Of a DNA stretch of 33,243 nucleotides, positions 940 to 27,069 are shown piece after piece (position 1 is the stretch's first letter; each line of letters begins with the position of its first letter). The DNA is from Myxococcales bacterium (GTDB taxonomy: Bacteria > Myxococcota_A > Polyangia > GCA-2747355). Under the pieces are notes generated by a model, which was not told the origin of the DNA, searched no databases, and saw nothing but the letters and a program-made list of their open reading frames with translations. The stretch lies in the NCBI GenBank assembly GCA_020431405.1, contig JAGQIK010000584.1, positions 1-33,243 of the forward strand, written 5' to 3'. The position numbers were made by a program, and so were the translations under genes.

Positions 940-2151
940 CTATGGCTCGAGTGCCTCCAGCTCGCCGCTCGCCAGCTTGCCAGCGATAAACGTCGCCGTC
1001 ACCGCGAGCTCGTCGTCGAGCACGACGAAGTCGGCGTTGCGCCCCTGCGACAGCGAGCCGAGCTGACTGGCACCCACCAACCGCGACGGGACACGCGAAG
1101 CGCACGCGACGGCGCTGCGCAGGTGAACGCCGGCCAGCTGCACCATGTTCTGCACGGCGCGATCCATCGAGAGCACCGAGCCGGCGAGGGTACCGTCCTC
1201 GAAGCGCGCCGACCCATCGCGCACCTGCACCGGCCGGTCGCCAAGACGCGCCGCGCCGGGCTCGGCGTCGAGCGCGGCCGTGCAGTCGGTGATCAACGCG
1301 ACGCGTTCTACGCTCAGCAGGCGCGGCACCAGGCGCAGCGTCGGCGCGGCCACGTGCACGCCGTCGGCGATCACCTCGGCGGTCAGTGAATCGAAGGCCA
1401 GCGCGGCGCCCACAACGCCCGGCTCGCGATGGTGCAACGGTCGCATGGCGTTGAACAGGTGCGTCACCGAGCGCGCGCCGGCGTCGACCGCGGCCGCCAC
1501 CTGCTCGAACGTCGCGTCGCTGTGCCCCACGCTGACCGCGACGCCGCGCGCCGCCAGCGTGCGCACCAGCCCGAGCGCGCCGGGCAGCTCGGGCGCGATC
1601 GTCATCACCGAGACGTGACCGCGCGCCGCCGCCAACAGCTCGTCGAGCAGCGCGCCATCCGGGGCGCGCATGTGCTCCACCGGCTGCGCGCCCGCGCGCG
1701 CCGGGTTGAGAAACGGTCCCTCGAGGTGCGCGCCGATCACGCGCGCGCCTTCGTGGGCGTCGTCACCGGCGCGCTGCTCGGCCTCGCACGCGTCGGCGAT
1801 GGCTTCCAGCGCGCGCAGCGTGCGCGCTACGGAGGCTGTGAGGATCGTCGGGCACCACGCCGTGGTGCCGCGCTCGCAGTGTGCCCGCGCGATGACCTGC
1901 AGCGCCTCGGCGCTGCCGTCGACCACGTCGGCCCCGCGCGCGCCGTGCACGTGCACGTCGACGTAGCCCGGCGCCACCGTGAGCTCGCCGAGCTGCAGCG
2001 TCGTCGCCGCGCTGGCAGGCGGCGCCTCGCTCGCCGCGCCCGACCACAGCACCGAGCCGTCGCGCACGAGCAGCACGCCCGGCGAGACGATGCCGCGGTC
2101 GAGCAGCAGGCGAGCTTCGAGGCGTAGGTCGCAGGGGAGGGGGGCGGTCAT
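940..2151 (-). CDS. nagA: N-acetylglucosamine-6-phosphate deacetylase
   Basis: NagA is a cytoplasmic metal-dependent amidohydrolase that removes acetate from GlcNAc-6-phosphate, feeding amino-sugar recycling or catabolism. The 403-residue length fits the family. Visible signatures in order are the metal-site motif GYVDVHVHGARG, the glutamate block GAHLEGPFLN, the His blocks SVGHSDAT and THLFNAMRP, the EVIADGVHV block, and the catalytic Asp in LITDCTAAL. The C-terminus keeps the amidohydrolase SLSQGRNADFVVLD block. ATG start, but no obvious ribosome-binding site. No nagB, PTS or sugar kinase gene is adjacent; instead the gene stands alone between two mirror-image palindromic elements, so its regulation and partners are not shown by context. 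Confidence 0.93.
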   Translation of the reverse strand: MTAPLPCDLRLEARLLLDRGIVSPGVLLVRDGSVLWSGAASEAPPASAATTLQLGELTVAPGYVDVHVHGARGADVVDGSAEALQVIARAHCERGTTAWCPTILTASVARTLRALEAIADACEAEQRAGDDAHEGARVIGAHLEGPFLNPARAGAQPVEHMRAPDGALLDELLAAARGHVSVMTIAPELPGALGLVRTLAARGVAVSVGHSDATFEQVAAAVDAGARSVTHLFNAMRPLHHREPGVVGAALAFDSLTAEVIADGVHVAAPTLRLVPRLLSVERVALITDCTAALDAEPGAARLGDRPVQVRDGSARFEDGTLAGSVLSMDRAVQNMVQLAGVHLRSAVACASRVPSRLVGASQLGSLSQGRNADFVVLDDELAVTATFIAGKLASGELEALEP

Positions 2152-5711: not shown

Positions 5712-7457
5712 GTGGCTAGCGCAGCCACAGCGATTCAAAGGCCGCGCGAAGACGGGGCTCAGACCCACTACGGCCGCTACGAGATCGTCCGCAAGCTCGC
5801 CACCGGCGGCATGGGAGAGGTGTTTCTAGCGAAGTCTCGCGGCGCCGCGGGCTTTCAGAAACACGTCGTCATCAAGAAGATCCTGCCGCACCTGGTCGAG
5901 CATCAGCAGTTCGTCGACGGCCTCGTGCGCGAGGCCAAGCTGCTCGTGCTGCTCGACCACCCAAACATCGTGCAGGTGCTCGATCTGGGGCGCGACGGGC
6001 CCGACTACTTCATGGCCATGGAGTTCGTCCATGGCTACAACATGGCGACCATCGCCCACTACTGCGCGCAGAAGCGGGTGCTGATCCCGCAAAACGCCTG
6101 CGCGTACATCGCGCTGCAAGTGCTCGGCGGGCTCGAGTACGCCCACGACATCACCGGCCCCGAGGGCGCGCGCCACAACATCATCCACCGCGACGTCTCG
6201 CCGCAAAACGTGCTCATCTCGCGCGATGGGCGCGTCAAGCTGACCGACTTCGGCATCGCCAAGGTGCTCAACGAGGCCGAGGCCGAGGTCACCAAGAGCC
6301 TCAAGGGCAAGTTCCGCTACATGGCGCCCGAGGCGGTGGACGGCGGCCGCATCGACCAACGCTACGACCTCTTTGCGGCCGGGATCCTGCTCTTCGAGGG
6401 GCTCTGCCGCCGGCACCTGTTCGGTGGTCGCAGCGACGTCGACATCCTCGCGCAGGTGCGCGAAGCGCGCGTCCCGCCCATCGCTCGTTATCACCCGGGC
6501 GTTTCGCCCGAGCTCGTCGCCGTGGCCGAGCGCGCGCTGGCCAAGGATCCAAGCGATCGCTACCAGAACGCCGCCGACTTCGCCGGCGACCTGCGCCGCG
6601 CGATCCAGCCGGTCACCGACAACGAGGCCGGCAAGGAGCTGCGCGCGTTCATCGAGGATCTCTACGAGCGCGAAGACTTCCCGATCAACAAGCCCAAGCT
6701 GCCCGACGTCGACGCGCCGGATCCAAACGTCACGCGCTCGGTGGTGCTGACGTCGAATCTCGGCATCGCGCACGACGAGCTGGCGCCCTCCAAGGGCGAG
6801 CGGCGGCCGCAGAAGAAGGTCAGCGGTGTGATGCTGCTGTCGATCGGCTTCGTGCTGATCACCTGCGCCGTGGCCTACCTGGCCTACGCGCTGCTGGTCA
6901 AAAAGAACGACATCGGCGCTGGCTCCGCGGGCAGCCCTGTGATCATCAAGGTCGAAAAGAACGGCAGCGGCAGCACCGCCGCTGCGTCGCGCGGCAGCGG
7001 CAGCGGCAGCGGGGCGATCGTCGGCGTGGGATCGAGCAGCGGCAGCGGCGACGTGGATCCAGGCAGCGGCGACGGCACCGGCAACGGCAGCACGACGGCT
7101 GCCGGCAGCGGCAGCGGCAAGCCCGCGCGCGCCAAGGTCGGCCGTCACAAGATCCGCCGCCACCGCCCGGGGCCGTTCAAGAGCGCTATGGGACGGCGCG
7201 CCTTCGCGCGCCACCAGGGCAGCCTCTACAAGTGCTTCCAGAAGCACGTCAAGCCGGGCGATCCGGCGGTCTCGCTGCGCGTCGTCTCGACGATCCTGGC
7301 CAGCGGCCACGTCAAGCAGGTCGTCATCGAGCCGCCGACCCGCGCCAACTCACCGCTCGGCCGCTGTGTCGCCGCGGTGGCCAAGCGCATCCGCTACCCG
7401 CGCCACGACAAGGCCGAGGTTGCATTCCACCAGCCGCTGAAGGTCAAGATGCAGTAG
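5712..7457 (+). CDS. Transmembrane Ser/Thr protein kinase with AgmX/PglI-like C-terminal domain
   Basis: A 581-residue Hanks-type kinase. The kinase domain (about residues 23-298) keeps the Gly-rich loop LATGGMGEVFLA, the ATP Lys in VVIKKI (about residue 55), HRDVSPQN (159-166), DFG (179-181) and MAPE (204-207), so it should be active. A transmembrane helix spans about 372-395 (MLLSIGFVLITCAVAYLAYAL). The exported part has a long Gly-Ser-rich linker, then a domain of about 90 residues with LYKCFQKH, VSTILASGHVKQVVI, LGRCVAAVAKRIRYP, which matches the AgmX/PglI-type tail found in many myxobacterial exported proteins. The GTG start has a GGAG five bases upstream. It probably couples an envelope signal to cytoplasmic phosphorylation; substrates are unknown. 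Confidence 0.88.
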   Translation: MASAATAIQRPREDGAQTHYGRYEIVRKLATGGMGEVFLAKSRGAAGFQKHVVIKKILPHLVEHQQFVDGLVREAKLLVLLDHPNIVQVLDLGRDGPDYFMAMEFVHGYNMATIAHYCAQKRVLIPQNACAYIALQVLGGLEYAHDITGPEGARHNIIHRDVSPQNVLISRDGRVKLTDFGIAKVLNEAEAEVTKSLKGKFRYMAPEAVDGGRIDQRYDLFAAGILLFEGLCRRHLFGGRSDVDILAQVREARVPPIARYHPGVSPELVAVAERALAKDPSDRYQNAADFAGDLRRAIQPVTDNEAGKELRAFIEDLYEREDFPINKPKLPDVDAPDPNVTRSVVLTSNLGIAHDELAPSKGERRPQKKVSGVMLLSIGFVLITCAVAYLAYALLVKKNDIGAGSAGSPVIIKVEKNGSGSTAAASRGSGSGSGAIVGVGSSSGSGDVDPGSGDGTGNGSTTAAGSGSGKPARAKVGRHKIRRHRPGPFKSAMGRRAFARHQGSLYKCFQKHVKPGDPAVSLRVVSTILASGHVKQVVIEPPTRANSPLGRCVAAVAKRIRYPRHDKAEVAFHQPLKVKMQ

Positions 7458-7687: not shown

Positions 7688-10123
7688 CTAGCGCAGCTTG
7701 ATCGCCGCGTAGCGCGCTACCTCGCGCCAGGGCGGCGGCTTGCGTCCGACGCGTGCGCGCGCGTGCCCGCGCGTGACGTGCGACTCGATGGCGCTTCCCA
7801 GCGGCGCGCCGAGCACGCCGATGGCGGCGTAGCCGTCGTTGGGTGTCAGCCACAGCGGGGTCTTGGCGCCGAAGCGGGCCAGCATCGGCGCGGCGGTCTT
7901 CTGTTTGAAGGCGCGACCGGCGTCGCCGCGAGCGCCGAAGGCGACGATGGCGCCCTTGGGGAAGCGGTCGAGGTAGCGCGAGAGCTCGCCGAACATGGCG
8001 GGGTGGATGTGCACGTCGAAGCCGCGCTCGTCGATGACGGCGCCGCTGTTGCGGTCGATGATGGCGACGTTGAGGCCCTTGCGGTTGTGGCTGACGCGAC
8101 GGCCGGCGACCCAGATCTCGCAGAAGCGCCCGCCGTAGAGGCCGCCGCTGACGACAGCGATGTCGACGGGGCTCTTGCCGAGGTTGCCGCCCAGCTCGCG
8201 CGCGACCGGGCGCGGGCGCGGCAAGAAGTGGTAGAGGTCGAGACGGTTGATGCCGCGCTCGACGAGCTTGGCGGGGATGGCGAGGCGCAGCGTCGACCAG
8301 TGGCCGTGCGCGAGCGGGCCCTTGCCGACGCGCTTGCCGTTGAACGTGGCGAGCAGGCGTGTGCCGGGCTGAGCCGCACGCGCGCGCAGCAGCAGCGTCA
8401 CGGCGCCGGGGCGGTTGATCGGCAGGAAGATGTGGCCGTGCGGCCGGCGCAGCGGCACGTAGTGCACCGGACCGTCGCGCACGGGGAAGCCGAAGTCGCG
8501 CGAGAGGTTGTAGCGAAAGCGCAGGCTCGCCAGGCCCATCATCGAGTGCAGCAGCGGCTTTCCGGCCGGGTTGGTCGCCGGGTTGACCTCGCCGAGCAGG
8601 TAGCTGCCATCGATGCGATCGTAGACCTCGGGCGAGCCGCCGCGGCGGAAGGTGAACGCCAGCGAGCCAGGCAGCGACAGCGGGTTGCCGACAGCGCGAT
8701 AGAGCCGGTCGACCAGGCCGTTGGTGACGGTCATGTAGAGGCCCTGCGTCGAGCGCACCTGGTACCAGCGCAGGTTGCGCCGTCCGAAGTCGCGCATCCA
8801 GGCGATGTTGAAGATCGCCGCGGCGACGATGGCCGCGCCGGCGACCACGGCCGCGGTGCGGCGCGGGCGTGCCGCGAGGCGCGCGATGACGAAGCGCAGC
8901 GAGACGGCGAGGCCGTAGATGAAGATCGGCAGGCACGACGTGAAGCGCCGCGCCGAAAACTCCCAGCCCCACCAGTCGTGCACGGCGCCGCCCATGAAGG
9001 TGAACGCGGCGAAGACGAGCAGCAGCCAGCGGGCGCCGTAGAGGCCGCGCCACGCCGCGCCGAGGATGCCGAGCAGCGACAGCGCGTAGAGCGGCGCCGA
9101 CGGCAAGAGCCCGTTGCGTGGCGAGAACAGCGTCGAGTGCCAGGCGCTATCGGACCACCACAAAAAGCCCTCGCCCTGCGGGACGGTCAGCGGTGAGCCA
9201 TAGAGGTACGACCACATCAGAAGCTGCGGCGAAAAGACGAGCAGCGCTACGGCGGCGCCGAGCAGCGGGGCGCCGAGTGCGCGAAAGTCGCGGCGCATCA
9301 GCGCGGGCCACACGGCGGCGACGCCCGCTTCGAGCGGCAGCAGCACGAAGGGCAAGCACGCCGGACGCACCAGCACGGCGAAGCCGGTGAGCGCGCCGAG
9401 CAGCACGAAGCGGCGTGTGGTCATCTCGCGCCGCCAGCGCAGCCAGGCGAGCACCAGCAGCGAGGTGGCCATCGCGGCAGCGGCGTGCGAGTAGGAGGCG
9501 CGCGTCAGGCAGTAGTAGGGCAGCGGGCCGGCCAGCGCGCCGCCGATGGCGGTCCACAGCGCGAGCGACTCCTTGCGCCGCGCCGACAGCGGCGCGCTGA
9601 TGAAGCGCTCGCCCGCGCTCCGCGGCGGCGCTGGCGACTCGAAGCGTGCATCGGAGAGCAGGCGCAGCACCATCAGGTAGCACAGCAGCACGGCGAGCCA
9701 GCCGAACAGCAGCGAGCCGTAGAAGGTGCCGATCTGGTGCGCGCGCGAGAAGCCCTCGAGCGAGAGCGGCCGGCCCAGCGCGCGACCGATGCGCACCAGC
9801 GCGTGGGTCGCGGCGAAGAAGGGCGCCCAGCAGATCGCCGGACCGATGCCGAAGACATTGCGCGCGTGGCCCGTGCGCGTGGTGCCGAATCGGAACGGGT
9901 TGCCCCACTTGTCGTACTCGTTGGCGAACTCGAGATCACCGTCCATCTGCAGCGAGCGCAGGTAGACGTAGTAGTAGTAGCCGTCGAGCTCGGCGACGCC
10001 GCCGATGTGGCCCTGGTAGTCGCGCAGCGTGAAGTAGGCGAGGGTGCCCAGGCCGAGCAGCGCCAACAACCAGCGCGCGTCTCGGCGGCGCACGAGGCGC
10101 GATATCCTGCCGCTCTCTGCCAT
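7688..10123 (-). CDS. GT-C-type membrane glycosyltransferase fused to a C-terminal ILEI/FAM3-like domain
   Basis: An 811-residue protein starting at MAESGRIS (ATG at 10123). After one N-terminal helix comes the acidic loop motif LDGYYYYVYLRSLQMDGD, typical of GT-C enzymes that take sugars from polyprenyl-phosphate donors. About ten further membrane segments reach to about residue 430. A beta-sandwich-like region follows (GAVTLLLRARAAQPGTRL, then STLRLAIPAKLVERGINRLD). Residues about 670-785 then match the ILEI/FAM3 fold: KGLNVAIIDRNSGAVIDERG, LDRFPKGAIVAFGARGDA, and the closing DGYAAIGVLGAPLGSAIE. FAM3-like domains bind sugars in some glycosyltransferases such as POMGNT1. The reading frame stays open far upstream over accD, but only this start gives the expected N-terminus. 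It is convergent with kinase 1 and divergent from the exonuclease gene. Confidence 0.78.
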   Translation of the reverse strand: MAESGRISRLVRRRDARWLLALLGLGTLAYFTLRDYQGHIGGVAELDGYYYYVYLRSLQMDGDLEFANEYDKWGNPFRFGTTRTGHARNVFGIGPAICWAPFFAATHALVRIGRALGRPLSLEGFSRAHQIGTFYGSLLFGWLAVLLCYLMVLRLLSDARFESPAPPRSAGERFISAPLSARRKESLALWTAIGGALAGPLPYYCLTRASYSHAAAAMATSLLVLAWLRWRREMTTRRFVLLGALTGFAVLVRPACLPFVLLPLEAGVAAVWPALMRRDFRALGAPLLGAAVALLVFSPQLLMWSYLYGSPLTVPQGEGFLWWSDSAWHSTLFSPRNGLLPSAPLYALSLLGILGAAWRGLYGARWLLLVFAAFTFMGGAVHDWWGWEFSARRFTSCLPIFIYGLAVSLRFVIARLAARPRRTAAVVAGAAIVAAAIFNIAWMRDFGRRNLRWYQVRSTQGLYMTVTNGLVDRLYRAVGNPLSLPGSLAFTFRRGGSPEVYDRIDGSYLLGEVNPATNPAGKPLLHSMMGLASLRFRYNLSRDFGFPVRDGPVHYVPLRRPHGHIFLPINRPGAVTLLLRARAAQPGTRLLATFNGKRVGKGPLAHGHWSTLRLAIPAKLVERGINRLDLYHFLPRPRPVARELGGNLGKSPVDIAVVSGGLYGGRFCEIWVAGRRVSHNRKGLNVAIIDRNSGAVIDERGFDVHIHPAMFGELSRYLDRFPKGAIVAFGARGDAGRAFKQKTAAPMLARFGAKTPLWLTPNDGYAAIGVLGAPLGSAIESHVTRGHARARVGRKPPPWREVARYAAIKLR

Positions 10124-16271: not shown

Positions 16272-16327
16272 GGGCGTGTGCTCCTGTCGGTCTTTTCCCC
16301 GATTCGCTGTCGCCTGAGAGCCTAGCC

Positions 16328-17218
16328 TTGGCCAGCCAAGACAAGCTTGAACAAACGCGACCGAGCGGCCACGGCCGCGCCCGTGGGCTGGTCAGCCGGC
16401 CCAGCGGCCCCGGCGTGCGTGCGCGCTTCTATCGCGCCCCCGAGGACCTGCGCGAGATGGTCGAGCGCTTCTGGGTCGGCGAGTGGGACTTGCCCGCCGA
16501 GGCGCCGCACGAGACGCAGCTGCTCGGCGATCCCTGCGCGCACGTCGTGTTCGAGCGCGGCGATCACACGGGCGAGCCCGAGCGCCGGCTCGTCGGCGTG
16601 TGGACCAAGCTGTGGCGCCGCCGTCTCGAAGGGCGCGGCCGCGTGCGCGCCGCCAAGCTGCGCGCCGGCGCCTTCGGCGCGCTCTTCGCCGGCGCCGCCG
16701 CGCGCTTCAGCGATCGCATCGTGCCGCTCGACGATGCCCTCGACGGTGCTCTCGACATTGCGCTCGAAGACGACGTGGCGCTCGCCGCCGAGCTCGACGC
16801 GCTGCAGGCGGTCGTGCTCGACGCCGATGACGACGAGCCCGCCTTCGTCGCGCTGGCCCAGTGGCTGCGCGCACGCCGCCGCACCGATCGCCGCGAGCAC
16901 GTCAGCCTCGCTGTCGCGCTCGTCGAGCGCATCGCCAGCGACCACGAGATCCGCTCCGTGCAGCGCCTCGGCGAGGCGTCCGGCCTCGACCCGCGCTCGC
17001 TGCAGCGCCTCTTTCGCGAGCACGTCGGCGCGTCGCCCAAGTGGGTCATTCGCCGCAGCCGCTTGCAGGAGGCAGCGGCGCGCATCGAGCGCGGCGAGGC
17101 GCCCAACCTCGCTCAGCTCGCCGCCGCCCTCGGCTATAGCGATCAAGCCCACCTGGCGCGCGACTTCAAGACCGCCGTCGGCCGCAGCCCGAGCGCGTTT
17201 CGGCGCCAGGGCGGCTGA
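16328..17218 (+). CDS. AraC-family transcriptional regulator
   Basis: A 296-residue regulator. The N-terminal part (about residues 30-165) resembles the DUF6597-type sensor region of AraC proteins (RFYRAPEDLREMVERFWVGE, then LLGDPCAHVVFE and VGVWTKLWRRRLEGRGRV, then AGAFGALF). The C-terminal about 100 residues hold the two helix-turn-helix motifs: SVQRLGEASGLDPRSLQRLF and the signature LAQLAAALGYSDQAHLARDF followed by VGRSPSAFRR. Start choice is uncertain: TTG at 16328, or GTG at 16415, which begins just before the conserved region. It is divergent from the cupin gene, its most likely target. Confidence 0.85.
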   Translation: MASQDKLEQTRPSGHGRARGLVSRPSGPGVRARFYRAPEDLREMVERFWVGEWDLPAEAPHETQLLGDPCAHVVFERGDHTGEPERRLVGVWTKLWRRRLEGRGRVRAAKLRAGAFGALFAGAAARFSDRIVPLDDALDGALDIALEDDVALAAELDALQAVVLDADDDEPAFVALAQWLRARRRTDRREHVSLAVALVERIASDHEIRSVQRLGEASGLDPRSLQRLFREHVGASPKWVIRRSRLQEAAARIERGEAPNLAQLAAALGYSDQAHLARDFKTAVGRSPSAFRRQGG

Positions 17219-17321
17219 GCCGCGCGCCCTCGATGCGGGTGCGTTTCTCAACTCGCTCGAAACGCTGTGATACGATCGAAGCTCTCCAATTGTGATCTGG
17301 CTTACGAGGAGGGCTGCGACC

Positions 17322-19271
17322 GTGCTCACCCGCTCAAAGGTACTGTGTGTTGCCGTCATCGGGCTGCTCGCCATCGCCTGCGGCGACGATTCGAAGCAGC
17401 AACAACAGAGCTGGCCCGACTTCGGTGATGGTCCAGCGGCACGCCCCGATCAGGGCATCACCGACATCGGCGAGCTGCCCGATGGCCTGCCGGCCAACCC
17501 CGAAGGGCCGGTGATCGAGTTCCAGTCGCCGATGGCGGGCGAGGTCGTCGCCGGCGCGGTGGTGAAGATCCGCGCCAAGATCACCGACCCCGACGGCATC
17601 GATGATCAGTCCGTCACCGTCACCGCGCTCAACGGCGATCCGGTCAAGATGACGATCACCTCCGAAAACGACGTCTACGAGGGGCTCGTCGACATCTCGG
17701 TGTTCACCGACAACGTGGCGGTGCGCGTGCAGGCCGCCGATCTCGGCGGTCAGGCCAACACCAAGGACCTGCTGTTCAAGCGCGACCCCGGCCCGCAGAT
17801 CCAGATCATCTCGCCCGCCGAAGACAGCCGCCACAAGGGCAGCGTCTCGGTGCGCGTCGTCGTCACGCCGCGCGGCGGCCGCACGATCAAAGCCACCGAG
17901 GTACGCATCGGCTCGGTGATGGTCACGACGACGAGCAAAGATCTGGCGAACGGCAAGAAGGAGTACACGGGCACCATCAAGTTCGATGACCCACAGTTCG
18001 TGCCGCCGCTGTCGGGTGCGCAGGTCATCAGCGTCGACGCCACCAACAGCGAGGACACCACCAGCAGCGCCCAGCGCAACTTCGTCGTCGACGACGCGGG
18101 GCCGACCATCGCGATCACCAGCCAGGTCGCCGGTCAGCTGATCGGCGGCATCATCCAGCTGCGCGCCGAGGTCAAAGACGAAGCCGGCATCGTGCCTTCC
18201 ACCGTGCGTGTCGTGATCGGCAACAACCTCGACACGCGCAACGTGGTGCTGCGCAACAGCGCGGGCACCAGCGTGTGGACCGGCCAGTTCGACACGCGCA
18301 CGCTGCAGCAGAACTACCTCTGGCCGGTGATGTCGTTCCGCGCCGCCGACACCCTCGGCAACGAGTCGCACGAAGACATCGAGGTTGGCCTCGACAACGG
18401 CGCACCCGTCATCGAGCTCGACCAGCAAGGCACCTACTACCACTGGCGCGAGAAGGAGAAGAAGTTCGAGGCCTCGCACCCGTTCGACGCCCTCGGCACC
18501 GACACCGCCAACGACGGCGACCAGGTGCCGCAGATCACCAAGCTGCGCGCGCGCGTCGAGGACTCCGGCAACTACGCGCCCTCGGCGCCGTGGATCCCGA
18601 TCTCGGCCGTCGACTTCTCCACGGTGCGCATGTTCGTGCTCGACGACACCAGCCAGGCGCTCGTCGTCGACACCGACGACGACGGCTACTGCGACGCGAT
18701 CAACCCCAACTTGATCCCCAAGGGCAGCACGCCGGCGCCGGGGCAGGCGGTGGCGGTGACGATGGTCGGCCTCGCGCCGTCCGGCACGGCCGACTTCACG
18801 CCCACCGGCAGCCCGCCCGGCGGATTTGACGACGGCACGGACCCAGACCCACCCAAGCCGCTGTGCAAGACGACGCCGTCGACGGTCTGGACCTACGCCA
18901 ACTCGACGGCCAACCGCCCGGCGATCTTCACCATCCCGCCGATCTCGTCGACGAGCATCGGCTGCGAGGGGCTGCCCTTCGACTTCCTCGCCAACCAGTT
19001 CACCGACAAGAGCTGGGTTTGCGTCGCCGTCTCCGCGCGCGACAACCTCGGCAACCGCGGCGTCTCGCAGCCGCTGCGCGTGTTCTACGATCAGTCGTAC
19101 GTCCCCACCGCCTACGGCTACACGCCCTACACCGGCGGCACGGCGATGCCCAACTGCACGGGCACGCTGCAGGCCAACGGCACCGTCGACACGAGCAAGC
19201 CGTGCATGTTCCGCGCCGCCGGCGACCCCAAGCCGCAGCGCTTCCCCACCTCTTGGCTCAAAGAGCAGTAG
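17322..19271 (+). CDS. Large lipoprotein with several Ig-like domains
   Basis: The GTG at 17322 is preferred over GTG at 17292: it has an AGGAGGG about ten bases upstream and gives a clean lipoprotein signal (VLCVAVIGLLAIAC, lipobox Cys at 20, then GDDSKQQQQ). The 649-residue protein then shows at least three Ig-like modules, each opening with a G-P-x-I-x-I pattern: GPVIEFQSPMAGEVV, GPQIQIISPAEDSRHKG and GPTIAITSQVAGQLIGG. A fourth possible unit starts at APVIELDQQGTYYHWRE. The C-terminal third is rich in Thr/Pro with paired Cys (for example DDDGYCDA, PLCKTTPS, SIGCEGL, CTGTLQ, KPCMF). It probably sits on the cell surface or in the periplasm as an adhesin or scaffold. Convergent with the repeat-protein gene. 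Confidence 0.72.
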   Translation: MLTRSKVLCVAVIGLLAIACGDDSKQQQQSWPDFGDGPAARPDQGITDIGELPDGLPANPEGPVIEFQSPMAGEVVAGAVVKIRAKITDPDGIDDQSVTVTALNGDPVKMTITSENDVYEGLVDISVFTDNVAVRVQAADLGGQANTKDLLFKRDPGPQIQIISPAEDSRHKGSVSVRVVVTPRGGRTIKATEVRIGSVMVTTTSKDLANGKKEYTGTIKFDDPQFVPPLSGAQVISVDATNSEDTTSSAQRNFVVDDAGPTIAITSQVAGQLIGGIIQLRAEVKDEAGIVPSTVRVVIGNNLDTRNVVLRNSAGTSVWTGQFDTRTLQQNYLWPVMSFRAADTLGNESHEDIEVGLDNGAPVIELDQQGTYYHWREKEKKFEASHPFDALGTDTANDGDQVPQITKLRARVEDSGNYAPSAPWIPISAVDFSTVRMFVLDDTSQALVVDTDDDGYCDAINPNLIPKGSTPAPGQAVAVTMVGLAPSGTADFTPTGSPPGGFDDGTDPDPPKPLCKTTPSTVWTYANSTANRPAIFTIPPISSTSIGCEGLPFDFLANQFTDKSWVCVAVSARDNLGNRGVSQPLRVFYDQSYVPTAYGYTPYTGGTAMPNCTGTLQANGTVDTSKPCMFRAAGDPKPQRFPTSWLKEQ

Positions 19272-19286: not shown

Positions 19287-19315
19287 GCCCGAGCTCGCGC
19301 TAGAGCAGCTCGGGC
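19287..19315. terminator. Hairpin between convergent genes
   Basis: A perfect nine-base inverted repeat, GCCCGAGCT (19287-19295) and AGCTCGGGC (19307-19315), with an 11-base loop sits between the Ig-like lipoprotein gene and the repeat-protein gene, overlapping the last codons of the latter. There is no T-run on either side, so any terminator activity would be non-classical. Confidence 0.35.
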
Positions 19316-22300
19316 GGTCCGAGCGCCTCGCCGCCCGCCGGCGACGTCAGCACCTTCAACACCCCCGCCGACTTCTTGCCGCTGCCGCCGCCTCCGCCGC
19401 CACCCTTGGCCGGAGGCTGCTGGCGCGGCTGCGGCCGCGGCTGCGGCTGCGCGCCGGGCGTCGCCGGCAGCGGGTCGAGCTTGATGTTGATGAAGAACAG
19501 CAGCTTGACGAAGCGGTTGCGGCCGATGCGCTGGTAGCCGAACAGACCACCGGGCAGCACCTCCCAGCGGAAGTCGCCCGGGCGGTCACGCGCCACGGTG
19601 AACAGCGGGAAGAAGTGAAACGCCCAGCGGTCGTTGACCTTGCTGCGCCAGTAGTAGGCGTTGGCCACCAGCGTGTAGTGGTCCTTGGCCTTCTCGATGT
19701 CCCAGAACAGCGGGAACACGACGCGCGTGCGGTAGCTCGGACGCCGGAAGTACCAATACAGCGGAAAGCCGATCGTCGTCGCGCGTTTGACGCCGCCGAA
19801 GTGCCAGAACAGCGGGAAGACGAGCACGTCGGATGATTTCTCGCGCGAGCGCACGTAGACGTTGGGCACCACGAACCACGAGGTCGCCTTCTCGACGTTG
19901 TCGCGGTGGCGCATCAGCAGCGGAAACAGCACCGTCGTGCGCGAGGCGAAGCGGTTGTTGAAGTCCCAGTACAGCGGGAACGCCACGGTGGCGCTCGAGT
20001 CGACGTCGCGATAGCGCCAGTAGAGCGGGAACAGCAGGTGGAAGGCGCTCTCCTTGGACCAGGTGCCGTAGTACGACGGCAGCGAGAAGAACGTCGAGCG
20101 CTGCGTCAGGTGGTTGCGGTGGTAGACGAACAGCGGGAACGTCATCGTCAGCGTGCGCTTGAGCGTGCGCGCGTGCAGGATCGGCGGCACGTACCAGAGC
20201 TTCTGATCGCTCGACAGCTCGAGGCCGAAGATCGGCGTGAAGAAGCGCCACTTGCCGATGCCCTTGTGGTTGTAGAACAGCGGGAAGAACGCCGTCGTGC
20301 GCTCGCTGGGCGACGAGCCGTGATAGAAGATCGGCGCCAGGCCGAAGGCGCTGTGGTCGTTGTTGCGGCGATAGAAGAACGGCCCGACAAACGTCGTCGA
20401 CGTGCGCGCCTTGGTGTTGCGCCAGTGCCAGAACAGCGGCGGCACGTGCGTGTAGCTGCTCACGCGCGTGTTTTTGTGAAACAGCAGCGGCATCAGGCCG
20501 AGGCTGTAGCCGTGCTCGTCCTTATCCTCGCCGCGGTAGGTGCGGTAGTAGAACGGGCCGACGATCCACAGCCGACGACGCTCCTTGAAGTCGTTGTGAT
20601 AGAAGATGAACGGCAGCGAGGCGAGGTAGCTGCTCTTGTTGTCGCGCTGGTAGAGCGCAAACGGGAACAGCACGTCGGTGCGCTTGTACTCGCGCTTGGA
20701 CCAGTGCCGATACGAGATGTAGGGGCCGTAGACGAGCGTCTTGCGCTCCTGATTCCAGAAGCGCCACACCAGCGGGAAGATGACCGTGAAGTTCTCGCCG
20801 CCCTTTTCGCGCTGCCGGAAGTAGAACGGGAACACGGCGAGGTTGCGCTGCTTGGGGTCGGCGATGTGCCAGTAGATCGGAAACACGACCAGCGCCTTCT
20901 GCTTGGGCGAGTCGTGGCGCACGCCGAAGGGCAAGATGATCGTCGTCGTCGACTTCTCTTTGGGCCGCTTGTAGTGAAAGAGCAGCGGGATCACGGCGAA
21001 GCCCGATAGCTCGCTGCTGTGGCCCCAGATCACGGGGCCGATCACGTTGCGGCGCAGCCCCGTGCGCGAGTTGCGCTCGAAGCCGCCCAGCGGCGTGACC
21101 AGCAGGCGCTGCTCGCGCGTGCGCTTGTAGTAGAACAGCGGAAGCACCGTGGTGTCCGAGCGCAGCACCGCGCCTTTGGCGTCGAGCTGCGCGCGATGGT
21201 GCGCCAGCGGAAACACCGTCCAGCCGGCGCGCCGCTTCTCGCGGAAGCTGTAGTAGAGCCCCGCCAGCGTGGTGTGCTCGCCGGTGCGCGGGTCGCTGCT
21301 GCGATAGAACAGCGGCGGTAGCACGGTGGTGTAGTCGCGGCCCTTCCAGTGGCCGGTGGCGAAGAGCGGCAAAAGCCCGGTGACCGTGCCTTTGCGGCTC
21401 TTGCTGCGCACGAAGGGGCCGGCGATCCACGTGTCGTAGCCGTCGGACACCGAGCTGACGTGCCAGAACGCCGGAAACAGCACCTGGTAGCGATCACCGC
21501 CGCGGCGGCCGGCGAAGAAGATCGGCGCCAGGCCGGCCTGCCAGCCGCTGCCGTATTCGCGCCGGAAGTACAGCGGGCCGAGCACGGTCGTGCTCGTGCG
21601 CGGGTTCTTGATGTGCCAGAAGGCCGGAAACAGCACGGCGTGGCGATGCCCCTGCGTGGCGCCGGTGAAGAGCAGCGGGAAGATGCCCGCCGACCAGCCG
21701 GTCTTCTTCGAGCGGTAGTACAGCGGGAAGAGCAGGTTGAAGCTCGTGCCGTCGGGGCTGCTGTTTCGATAGAAGATCGGAAACAGCACGCTGGTGGCGT
21801 TGCCGCTCTGCCGATCGGCGAAACGCCAGAACAGCGGAAACAGGATCTGCGTGTCGCCTTCGGGATCGTGGTGATACCAGAACGGCGGCACGACCCAGTT
21901 GGTGGTGCGCTCGACCTTGTCGTACCAGCGCCAGACCAGCGGGAAGAGCGTGTCGACCTCGCGGTGGCTGTCGCGGCGGTGGTAGAACGGCGGCACCAGC
22001 ATTCCCCACTGCGTGACCTTCGCCGCGTCGTCGCGCTCGTAGAGAAACAGCGGCGAAAAGACGTTGGCGCGCCGGCCGCCGTCGACCTTGCGGTAGTAGA
22101 AGATCGGCAGCAGCGTCGTGTAGCTGCGACGCGGGCTCGACGAGTGCCACAGCAGCGGAAACAGCACGGTCGTCGCGCTGTCGCGCGTGCGATGGCGATA
22201 GAAGAGCGGCGCGATGGTCGTCGATTCGCCGGGGCGCCGCCGGTAGTAGAACAGCGGCAGCAAGGCGGTGGTCTTGGTGTCGCCTTCGCGCGCGTGGAAG

Positions 22301-23172
22301 TTGAGCGGCAGCACCCAGGTAAACGAGCTCTGCGGTCCGCTCGAGTGATAGAAGAGCGGGAAGATCGCGTTGGCGCGCTGCTGCTCGTGACGCTTCCAGT
22401 AGTAGATGCCGAAGAGCAAGCCGCGCGAGTAGGCGTTCTTCGAGTCGCTGCCCCAGAACGTCAACAGCGGCGGCAGCACCAGCAGGCGCTTGGTGTCGTT
22501 GCGCGAGTAGTGAAACAGCGGCAGCACCGTCAGGCCGGCGCCCTTGTCGTAGTCGGTCCAGAAGAGCAGCGGCCAGAAGCGATAGTTGCGCTCGCCGGGC
22601 GCGCGCCGGTACTGGAACGGCGGCACGATCACGCTCACCGTCTTGGCTTTGTCGTCTTCGAAGCGCCAGTAGAACGGGAAGAACACGCGCGAGCGCGAGG
22701 TCTTGTCGCTGAAGCGCCAGTAGAACGGAAAGACCACGCGGTAGCCCGGCGTGCCGGCGTGGTGCCAATAGATGCCGAGTGCCTCGGTGAAGCGTTTGTC
22801 GCCCGAGCGATAGAACAGATACATCACGTTGATCGGCGTCGTGACCTTGTGGCACTTGTGGTCGCCGAGGATGTGGCAGAAGTTGCCGACGCCGCACTGC
22901 GCGTCGCTCTGGCACGACTTGCCGATGGCGGTCTTGGGGTCGACCTTCGGCGGCGGCGCTGACGTGGCCGGCGCCGCGGCAGCGGGCTGCGTCTTCGCGG
23001 GCGGCGGCGACTTCTGCGCCACGCGTTTCCACTGAAACGGCGACGCGTCTTTGGCCCGACCGTCTTTGGCCCTAGCGAGCCGGAAGAAGGGCGAGCCTGG
23101 GCCTGCGTGCGCCAGCGAGGGCAGGGCGACGATCGACAGCAGGAGCGCGAGGCGGAGCGAGTGGAGGCTCAA
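19300..23172 (-). CDS. Giant exported protein of about 60 aromatic FPLF(Y/W) repeats
   Basis: A 1290-residue protein. A signal peptide (LALLLSIVALPSLAHA) is followed by a Pro/Ala linker and a four-Cys segment (Cys 87, 93, 99, 107; CQSDAQCGVGNFC). From about residue 148 to 1212 a motif recurs roughly every 18 residues, about 60 times: hydrophobic pair, F/L-P, L/F, then F/Y/W, W/Y and a basic or polar turn, as in VLFPLFWRF, TTVLFPLLWHS, VFFPFYWRF. The C-terminus is Pro/Gln-rich, then poly-Gly (GGGGGGGSGKK). Each unit looks like one beta-strand plus a turn. I know no named family with this repeat; a very large barrel, a beta-solenoid or a surface fibre are all possible. The start appears to be TTG without a clear ribosome-binding site; it follows the small exported-protein gene by 34 bases. 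Confidence 0.8.
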   Translation of the reverse strand: MSLHSLRLALLLSIVALPSLAHAGPGSPFFRLARAKDGRAKDASPFQWKRVAQKSPPPAKTQPAAAAPATSAPPPKVDPKTAIGKSCQSDAQCGVGNFCHILGDHKCHKVTTPINVMYLFYRSGDKRFTEALGIYWHHAGTPGYRVVFPFYWRFSDKTSRSRVFFPFYWRFEDDKAKTVSVIVPPFQYRRAPGERNYRFWPLLFWTDYDKGAGLTVLPLFHYSRNDTKRLLVLPPLLTFWGSDSKNAYSRGLLFGIYYWKRHEQQRANAIFPLFYHSSGPQSSFTWVLPLNFHAREGDTKTTALLPLFYYRRRPGESTTIAPLFYRHRTRDSATTVLFPLLWHSSSPRRSYTTLLPIFYYRKVDGGRRANVFSPLFLYERDDAAKVTQWGMLVPPFYHRRDSHREVDTLFPLVWRWYDKVERTTNWVVPPFWYHHDPEGDTQILFPLFWRFADRQSGNATSVLFPIFYRNSSPDGTSFNLLFPLYYRSKKTGWSAGIFPLLFTGATQGHRHAVLFPAFWHIKNPRTSTTVLGPLYFRREYGSGWQAGLAPIFFAGRRGGDRYQVLFPAFWHVSSVSDGYDTWIAGPFVRSKSRKGTVTGLLPLFATGHWKGRDYTTVLPPLFYRSSDPRTGEHTTLAGLYYSFREKRRAGWTVFPLAHHRAQLDAKGAVLRSDTTVLPLFYYKRTREQRLLVTPLGGFERNSRTGLRRNVIGPVIWGHSSELSGFAVIPLLFHYKRPKEKSTTTIILPFGVRHDSPKQKALVVFPIYWHIADPKQRNLAVFPFYFRQREKGGENFTVIFPLVWRFWNQERKTLVYGPYISYRHWSKREYKRTDVLFPFALYQRDNKSSYLASLPFIFYHNDFKERRRLWIVGPFYYRTYRGEDKDEHGYSLGLMPLLFHKNTRVSSYTHVPPLFWHWRNTKARTSTTFVGPFFYRRNNDHSAFGLAPIFYHGSSPSERTTAFFPLFYNHKGIGKWRFFTPIFGLELSSDQKLWYVPPILHARTLKRTLTMTFPLFVYHRNHLTQRSTFFSLPSYYGTWSKESAFHLLFPLYWRYRDVDSSATVAFPLYWDFNNRFASRTTVLFPLLMRHRDNVEKATSWFVVPNVYVRSREKSSDVLVFPLFWHFGGVKRATTIGFPLYWYFRRPSYRTRVVFPLFWDIEKAKDHYTLVANAYYWRSKVNDRWAFHFFPLFTVARDRPGDFRWEVLPGGLFGYQRIGRNRFVKLLFFINIKLDPLPATPGAQPQPRPQPRQQPPAKGGGGGGGSGKKSAGVLKVLTSPAGGEALGPPELL

Positions 23173-24078: not shown

Positions 24079-27069
<2,991 letters not shown>

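Follow-up and report, generated by a model that had tools for sequence, protein, structure and literature searches.

Does the protein encoded at positions 7688-10123 of the window, the whole 33,243-nucleotide stretch of DNA analysed here, join a GT-C glycosyltransferase to an ILEI/FAM3 domain, and what would such a tail contribute to the enzyme? The minus-strand frame comprises 811 residues with no internal stop and contains all the sequence blocks on which the preliminary description relied: LDGYYYYVYLRSLQMDGD, GLNVAIIDRNSG, FPKGAIVAFGARGD and IGVLGAPLGSAIE. Because the same frame stays open upstream as far as 12016, the start at 10123 counts as inferred; it was set by alignment with the ortholog of the window protein (P0001) in genome G001, referred to as L009. 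The features discussed below are collected in Table 1.

Table 1. Positions of the gene, its domains and its candidate functional residues in the window.
Feature	Position	Strand	Basis
Gene for membrane glycosyltransferase (GT-C) with beta-sandwich and ILEI domain, 811 residues	7688..10123	-	open frame; 29 fetched relatives; start aligned to L009
Membrane GT-C part (very likely), residues 20-470	8714..10066	-	hydropathy peaks; PMT_2 in 10/25 aligned relatives, not in the window protein
Asp47, candidate catalytic Asp, shortly past the first membrane segment	9983..9985	-	invariance; putative role from GT-C enzymes, e.g. GT136 ORF12 (PMC11127046)
Predicted beta-sandwich, residues 485-640, also in ILEI-less relatives	8204..8671	-	alignment; model strands; weak CBM6/35/36 and BcsB likeness
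ILEI/FAM3-fold domain, residues 650-800	7724..8176	-	profile against PDB; model against PDB, Z up to 12.4
PF15711 match, residues 683-772	7808..8077	-	Pfam scan and genome profile search
Lys682, POMGNT1 Arg129 position	8078..8080	-	alignments
Gly733, POMGNT1 Asp179 position; Asp734 adjoins	7925..7927	-	alignments
Asn762, POMGNT1 Arg207 position	7838..7840	-	alignments

The C-terminal domain of the window protein is a true ILEI/FAM3 domain. A Pfam scan matched PF15711 (ILEI) to residues 683-772 with 45.1 bits (E=1.5e-11; cut-off 27), the sole Pfam match of the protein at E<=10; in a genome search the same domain scored 50.2, and the window gene was the only ILEI match in the source genome (11.2 Mb, 733 contigs). 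Searched singly against PDB, the window sequence reached FAM3A (E=0.0039), TMEM2, the cell surface hyaluronidase (0.0051), FAM3C (0.05) and FAM3B (0.18). A profile built from four bacterial fusion sequences (A2) returned eight PDB matches at E<0.1, all to FAM3B (3.1e-11), FAM3A (3e-10), POMGNT1 (4.8e-10), FAM3C (5.8e-10) or TMEM2 (5.7e-9), with the next, unrelated, entry at 0.19. The sequence profiles and the fold thus agree in bearing out the ILEI/FAM3 identity that the preliminary description had assigned to the tail.

The fold was evaluated by modelling residues 642-799 from the window sequence and seven phage ILEI sequences, with no animal sequence in the input. Although the model is of middling quality, given a mean pLDDT of 63 and a pTM of 0.68, its best structural match was the POMGNT1 stem (5ggf; Z 12.4, 2.8 A over 130 residues), and the top 11 PDB entries were all POMGNT1, FAM3A, FAM3B or FAM3C (Z 10.3-12.4), well above the entries that followed (TMEM2, Z 7.8; designed Top7 proteins, Z 7.7 and lower). 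The 21 best chains in a Foldseek search were likewise all of the ILEI fold (E=2.0e-4 to 1.0e-3; next 0.096). The domain is therefore predicted to adopt the beta-beta-alpha fold of FAM3B, FAM3C and the POMGNT1 stem, and the proposed superposition on FAM3B and on that stem succeeded for both.

The preliminary description had placed a beta-sandwich-like region after the membrane part and ahead of the ILEI domain, and a low-confidence single-sequence model of residues 487-811 (mean pLDDT 40; its ILEI part useless) backs this with eight strands predicted for residues 532-633 (46-147 in model numbering). The matches of the sandwich model, with Z up to 6.8 and below the level that the tool regards as meaningful, were headed by Hikeshi, followed by BcsB and later by CBM6 and CBM36; the likeness to CBM6/35/36 and BcsB domains is weak (Z 5 to 6.8). 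Foldseek returned no match to the model of residues 487-811 at E<=0.001. In the alignment, the sandwich is common to the well-covered relatives, with or without ILEI.

The enzyme part is very likely a GT-C glycosyltransferase of the PMT_2 sort. Neither Pfam at E<=10 nor NCBIfam at 0.01 gives a glycosyltransferase match for the window protein, so the assignment, which agrees with the preliminary description, draws its good though indirect support from relatives, conserved residues and hydropathy. PMT_2 (PF13231) was detected at E<=0.01 in 10 of the 25 aligned family members (30 rows minus L025, L027, L031, L032 and L040) and above the cut-off in five of 17 relatives scanned singly (L016, L029, L019, L028 and L037); the 25-row family profile had no match among solved structures at E<=5. 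The hydropathy profile has nine peaks reaching 1.3 or more, preceded by a weaker one at residues 15-33, and together with the acidic residue D47 in the first loop this describes a multi-pass membrane part. Residues invariant in all 25 members include D47, H213, R253, Q300, Q316, W323, D383, R392 and R393, and D47 is present in all 28 rows with a residue at that position. In GT136 ORF12 the proposed catalytic Asp also adjoins the first membrane helix, and its Ala variant is reported to be inactive (PMC11127046); the invariance of Asp47 and the comparison with other GT-C enzymes make it the likely catalytic base.

A search with the window protein gave matches in 50 of 192 genomes of the class. 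From 30 loci, with the window locus itself set aside and L013 replaced by the longer stretch L009, 29 relatives were obtained. Three have a full ILEI domain past the sandwich (L009, L015 and L024), 24 end after the sandwich without ILEI, L025 is cut at two N of its contig and L027 runs off its contig end. Since the two N (L053 5421-5422, on the longer stretch of L025 in genome G431) fall inside the ILEI part of this fifth GT-C fusion, the missing half of its domain is probably an assembly gap, not biology. As most relatives are without ILEI, the module would be unneeded for the core reaction. Within the membrane core P0001 and L009 are 58% identical, while the sandwich and the ILEI domain each reach 50%; the ILEI part of P0001 is 22% identical to that of L015 and 33% to that of L024.

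A survey of 317 genomes of the class found PF15711 above the cut-off in seven, four of which (G000, G001, G439 and G461; families f1, f5 and f8) bear it on this GT-C, so that bacterial fusions do occur in three families. The other three encode unrelated, apparently secreted proteins: L042 with collagen repeats and ILEI, the low-complexity protein L043 with ILEI, and L046 502-2511 (-), a secreted-looking combination of CBM6, an ILEI-like domain (26.4 against a cut-off of 27 in the protein scan) and a hydrolase-like part. Among 377 genomes drawn from the phylum, three have PF15711: that of the window, G224 (two tandem domains) and G124, the latter two not on a GT-C as judged by eye from the frames. 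No relatives were found in viral contigs or a phage collection with the bacterial ILEI queries, or in plasmids with the whole window protein.

Several further loci came to light in these searches. In G224, L010 6630-12020 (-) encodes a very long DDDGDG-repeat protein whose C terminus holds two ILEI domains in tandem (93.7 and 77.3 bits), the second with R/D/R at the sugar-contact positions considered below and the first without, comparable to TMEM2 and FAMP-1, in which one of two domains lacks the triad. L042 1378-2607 (-) and L011 5510-7237 (-) read, from their frames, as tail-fibre-like ILEI proteins resembling phage adhesion modules. Two sub-threshold ILEI matches were discarded as false, the frames reading as a spermidine-synthase-like membrane protein (L003, G011) and a Lon-like protease (L004, G055); the single match in a general collection of genome contigs (L005, Pelosinus) was attributed to chance, lying inside a protein whose frame reads as a LuxR-type membrane protein.

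The history of the fusion was assessed with a tree of 27 enzyme cores, the short L027, L031 and L040 being left out. The fusions lie at two places in this tree and three changes are needed. Placing all five in one clade was rejected (p-AU 0.0042), but a clade of the five with the ILEI-less L039 was not (p-AU 0.095); both scenarios therefore stand, one gain of ILEI followed by loss in L039 or two separate gains. No ILEI remnant was visible by eye in the three frames past the stop of L039.

Next, we examined the residues through which the domain would contact a sugar. In the POMGNT1 stem, R129, D179 and R207 are reported to have a direct role in binding beta-linked GlcNAc (PMC9802357). The contact residues were taken from the accounts in PMC9802357, PMC9437275 and PMC10206443, and the POMGNT1 numbering was counted along the aligned sequence, where the 50- and 28-residue spacings fit. 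The corresponding window residues, K682/G733/N762, include no exact match, although Asp734 lies one residue off the missing Asp, and the domain thus lacks the signature of a POMGNT1-type GlcNAc lectin. R/D/R is complete in five of ten bacterial domains in the alignment as computed (L015, L042, the second of G224, L011 and L043); the others include L009 (R/D/E), L024 (R/E/R), L046 (A/D/R) and the first of G224 (Y/A/K). The K/G/N triad disfavours POMGNT1-like GlcNAc binding in the window protein, and with it the earlier suggestion that the domain might bind O-mannosyl glycans in the manner of POMGNT1; with these contacts changed, the domain would have another ligand, or weak or no binding of this kind.

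The same changes lend some weight to an alternative, unlikely but deserving a hearing, in which ILEI has lost sugar binding and serves as a structural or docking piece that packs on the sandwich or pairs with a partner protein. Such residue loss has precedents: the three key residues of TMEM2 are described as conserved in domain 1 and none of them in the lectin-like domain 2, so that one of its paired domains has lost them (PMC10206443), and Caenorhabditis elegans Fam3L1, where neither D179 nor R207 is conserved, is reported to lack GlcNAc binding (PMC9802357). A possible loss of ILEI in L039 would likewise suggest a dispensable module. However, the distant fusion L015 retains all three residues and L024 has R/E/R, so that some fusion members look like binders, and the neighbouring Asp734 of the window also speaks against a mere docking role.

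A bacterial O-glycosylation system, to which the preliminary description had tentatively linked the gene, is not supported by its surroundings. The window gene stands alone among genes unrelated to it: its neighbours are an exonuclease gene in divergent orientation (PF10108; 10184-10924 +) and, convergent to it, a Ser/Thr kinase gene at 5712-7457 (+), with AccD and FolC following, and none of the adjoining genes serves donor synthesis, acts as a flippase or belongs to a glycan cluster. At four other fusion loci, L009, L051 (L015), L052 (L024) and L053 (L025), thirteen of the larger set of neighbouring frames were scanned; neither a gene common to the loci nor a glycan cluster appeared, and the sole carbohydrate gene among the thirteen encodes a GH2 enzyme close to L025. 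It is accordingly improbable that the protein is a PMT-like protein O-glycosyltransferase that uses its ILEI domain to recognise the O-linked glycans of its substrates. The PMT_2 matches of the relatives are in keeping with such an enzyme, but PMT_2 spans other enzyme kinds too, among them lipid A, cell-wall and polysaccharide enzymes; POMGNT1 is reported to apply the same domain to O-mannosyl glycans (PMC9802357), but the triad is lost in the window copy, and we found no linked substrate or glycosylation gene. An assembly or frame artefact can be set aside almost entirely: the source genome is assembled in 733 contigs, but the copies in three separate genomes, G001 (53% identity), G439 and G461, have the same domain order, and the window gene is one stop-free open frame.

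Elsewhere in the window, 940-2151 (-) encodes an N-acetylglucosamine-6-phosphate deacetylase (nagA) above the cut-off, about 5.5 kb off and with no evidence of linkage. Besides the kinase at 5712-7457 (+), the window encodes a second Ser/Thr kinase at 24079-27069 (+), one of the two with an AgmX/PglI C-terminal match just below the cut-off and one with PEGA. The products of 19300-23172 (-; 1290 residues) and 16322-17374 (-; 350 residues) have no Pfam match at 0.01.

What we observe is the homology of the ILEI domain and its fold, a link to GT-C enzymes that runs through relatives, a fusion that is conserved and contact residues that have changed; beyond this, we consider it reasonably probable that this is a GT-C enzyme with an acceptor-holding tail. 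A PMT_2-like GT-C in the inner membrane would use a sugar carried on polyprenyl phosphate and, with Asp47 after the first membrane helix as the likely catalytic base, transfer it in the periplasm to a glycan or glycoconjugate that serves as acceptor. The periplasmic tail, consisting of the beta-sandwich of the well-covered relatives and, in a few, the ILEI lectin module, may hold or position that acceptor, as proposed for EmbC and GT136 ORF12, whose tails bind carbohydrate. In the window lineage, the altered GlcNAc residues would imply a different glycan, or weak or absent binding of that type. Acceptor recognition by the ILEI tail is a plausible best guess, because GT-C enzymes that carry a tail for carbohydrate binding in the periplasm are established and ILEI is a lectin fold.

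A wider reading, which we offer with more doubt than conviction, is that a lectin fold familiar from animal cytokine-like proteins and a single animal glycosyltransferase was acquired independently, on one or two occasions in one bacterial class, by a glycosyltransferase whose own fold is unrelated, that its site was retuned to another glycan in the window lineage, and that these enzymes form an undescribed GT-C family in which a replaceable tail sets the choice of acceptor. Among the titles returned by searches of mostly non-subscription literature for ILEI/FAM3 in bacteria or on bacterial glycosyltransferases and for the GG domain, none reports the pairing of GT-C with ILEI. The family offers a natural experiment, the same GT-C with and without a lectin tail and with contact residues kept (L015) or changed (P0001), and allows a direct test of what ILEI contributes to a glycosyltransferase, a question that bears on POMGNT1 and FAM3 too. 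Furthermore, it supports viewing bacterial PF15711 proteins as lectin-bearing, not cytokine-like.

Among known systems, the POMGNT1 stem (5ggf, 5ggj) resembles the window protein in that an ILEI fold (Z 12.4) is joined to a glycosyltransferase, but differs in its sugar triad, R/D/R there and K/G/N here. FAM3A, FAM3B and FAM3C share the fold and the profile of the window domain, but are single-domain secreted signalling proteins, not enzymes. A study of the GG domain reportedly deals with phage fibres and POMGNT1. The CBM_1 of phage TP-778L Tal and T4 gp35 likewise score above the PF15711 cut-off, and sequences closely related to these two share 15-21% identity with the window domain; in contrast to the window protein, both serve the virion in adhesion or as part of a fibre and are not enzymes. 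ILEI modules in phage adhesion devices have been described (PMC9437275), and the POMGNT1 stem, FAM3C and phage tail modules provide precedents for ILEI as a lectin (PMC9802357; PMC9437275). GT-C enzymes with periplasmic carbohydrate-binding tails include EmbA/B/C, AftD and GT136 ORF12 (PMC11127046; PMC3044687); mycobacterial EmbC differs from the window protein in its other lectin-like fold and its arabinan acceptor (PMC3044687), and its module is reported to matter for acceptor use, whereas ORF12 seemed able to catalyse its reaction without its module in the conditions used (PMC11127046). GT136 ORF12 of Citrobacter youngae O1, compared here by its description, belongs to an O-antigen cluster with a donor synthase and a flippase, and the available part of the report mentions no ILEI domain; as proposed for the window protein, however, a GT-C is followed by a C-terminal periplasmic beta-rich carbohydrate-binding module, an Asp close to the first membrane helix is essential, and the enzyme acts on a periplasmic glycan (PMC11127046).
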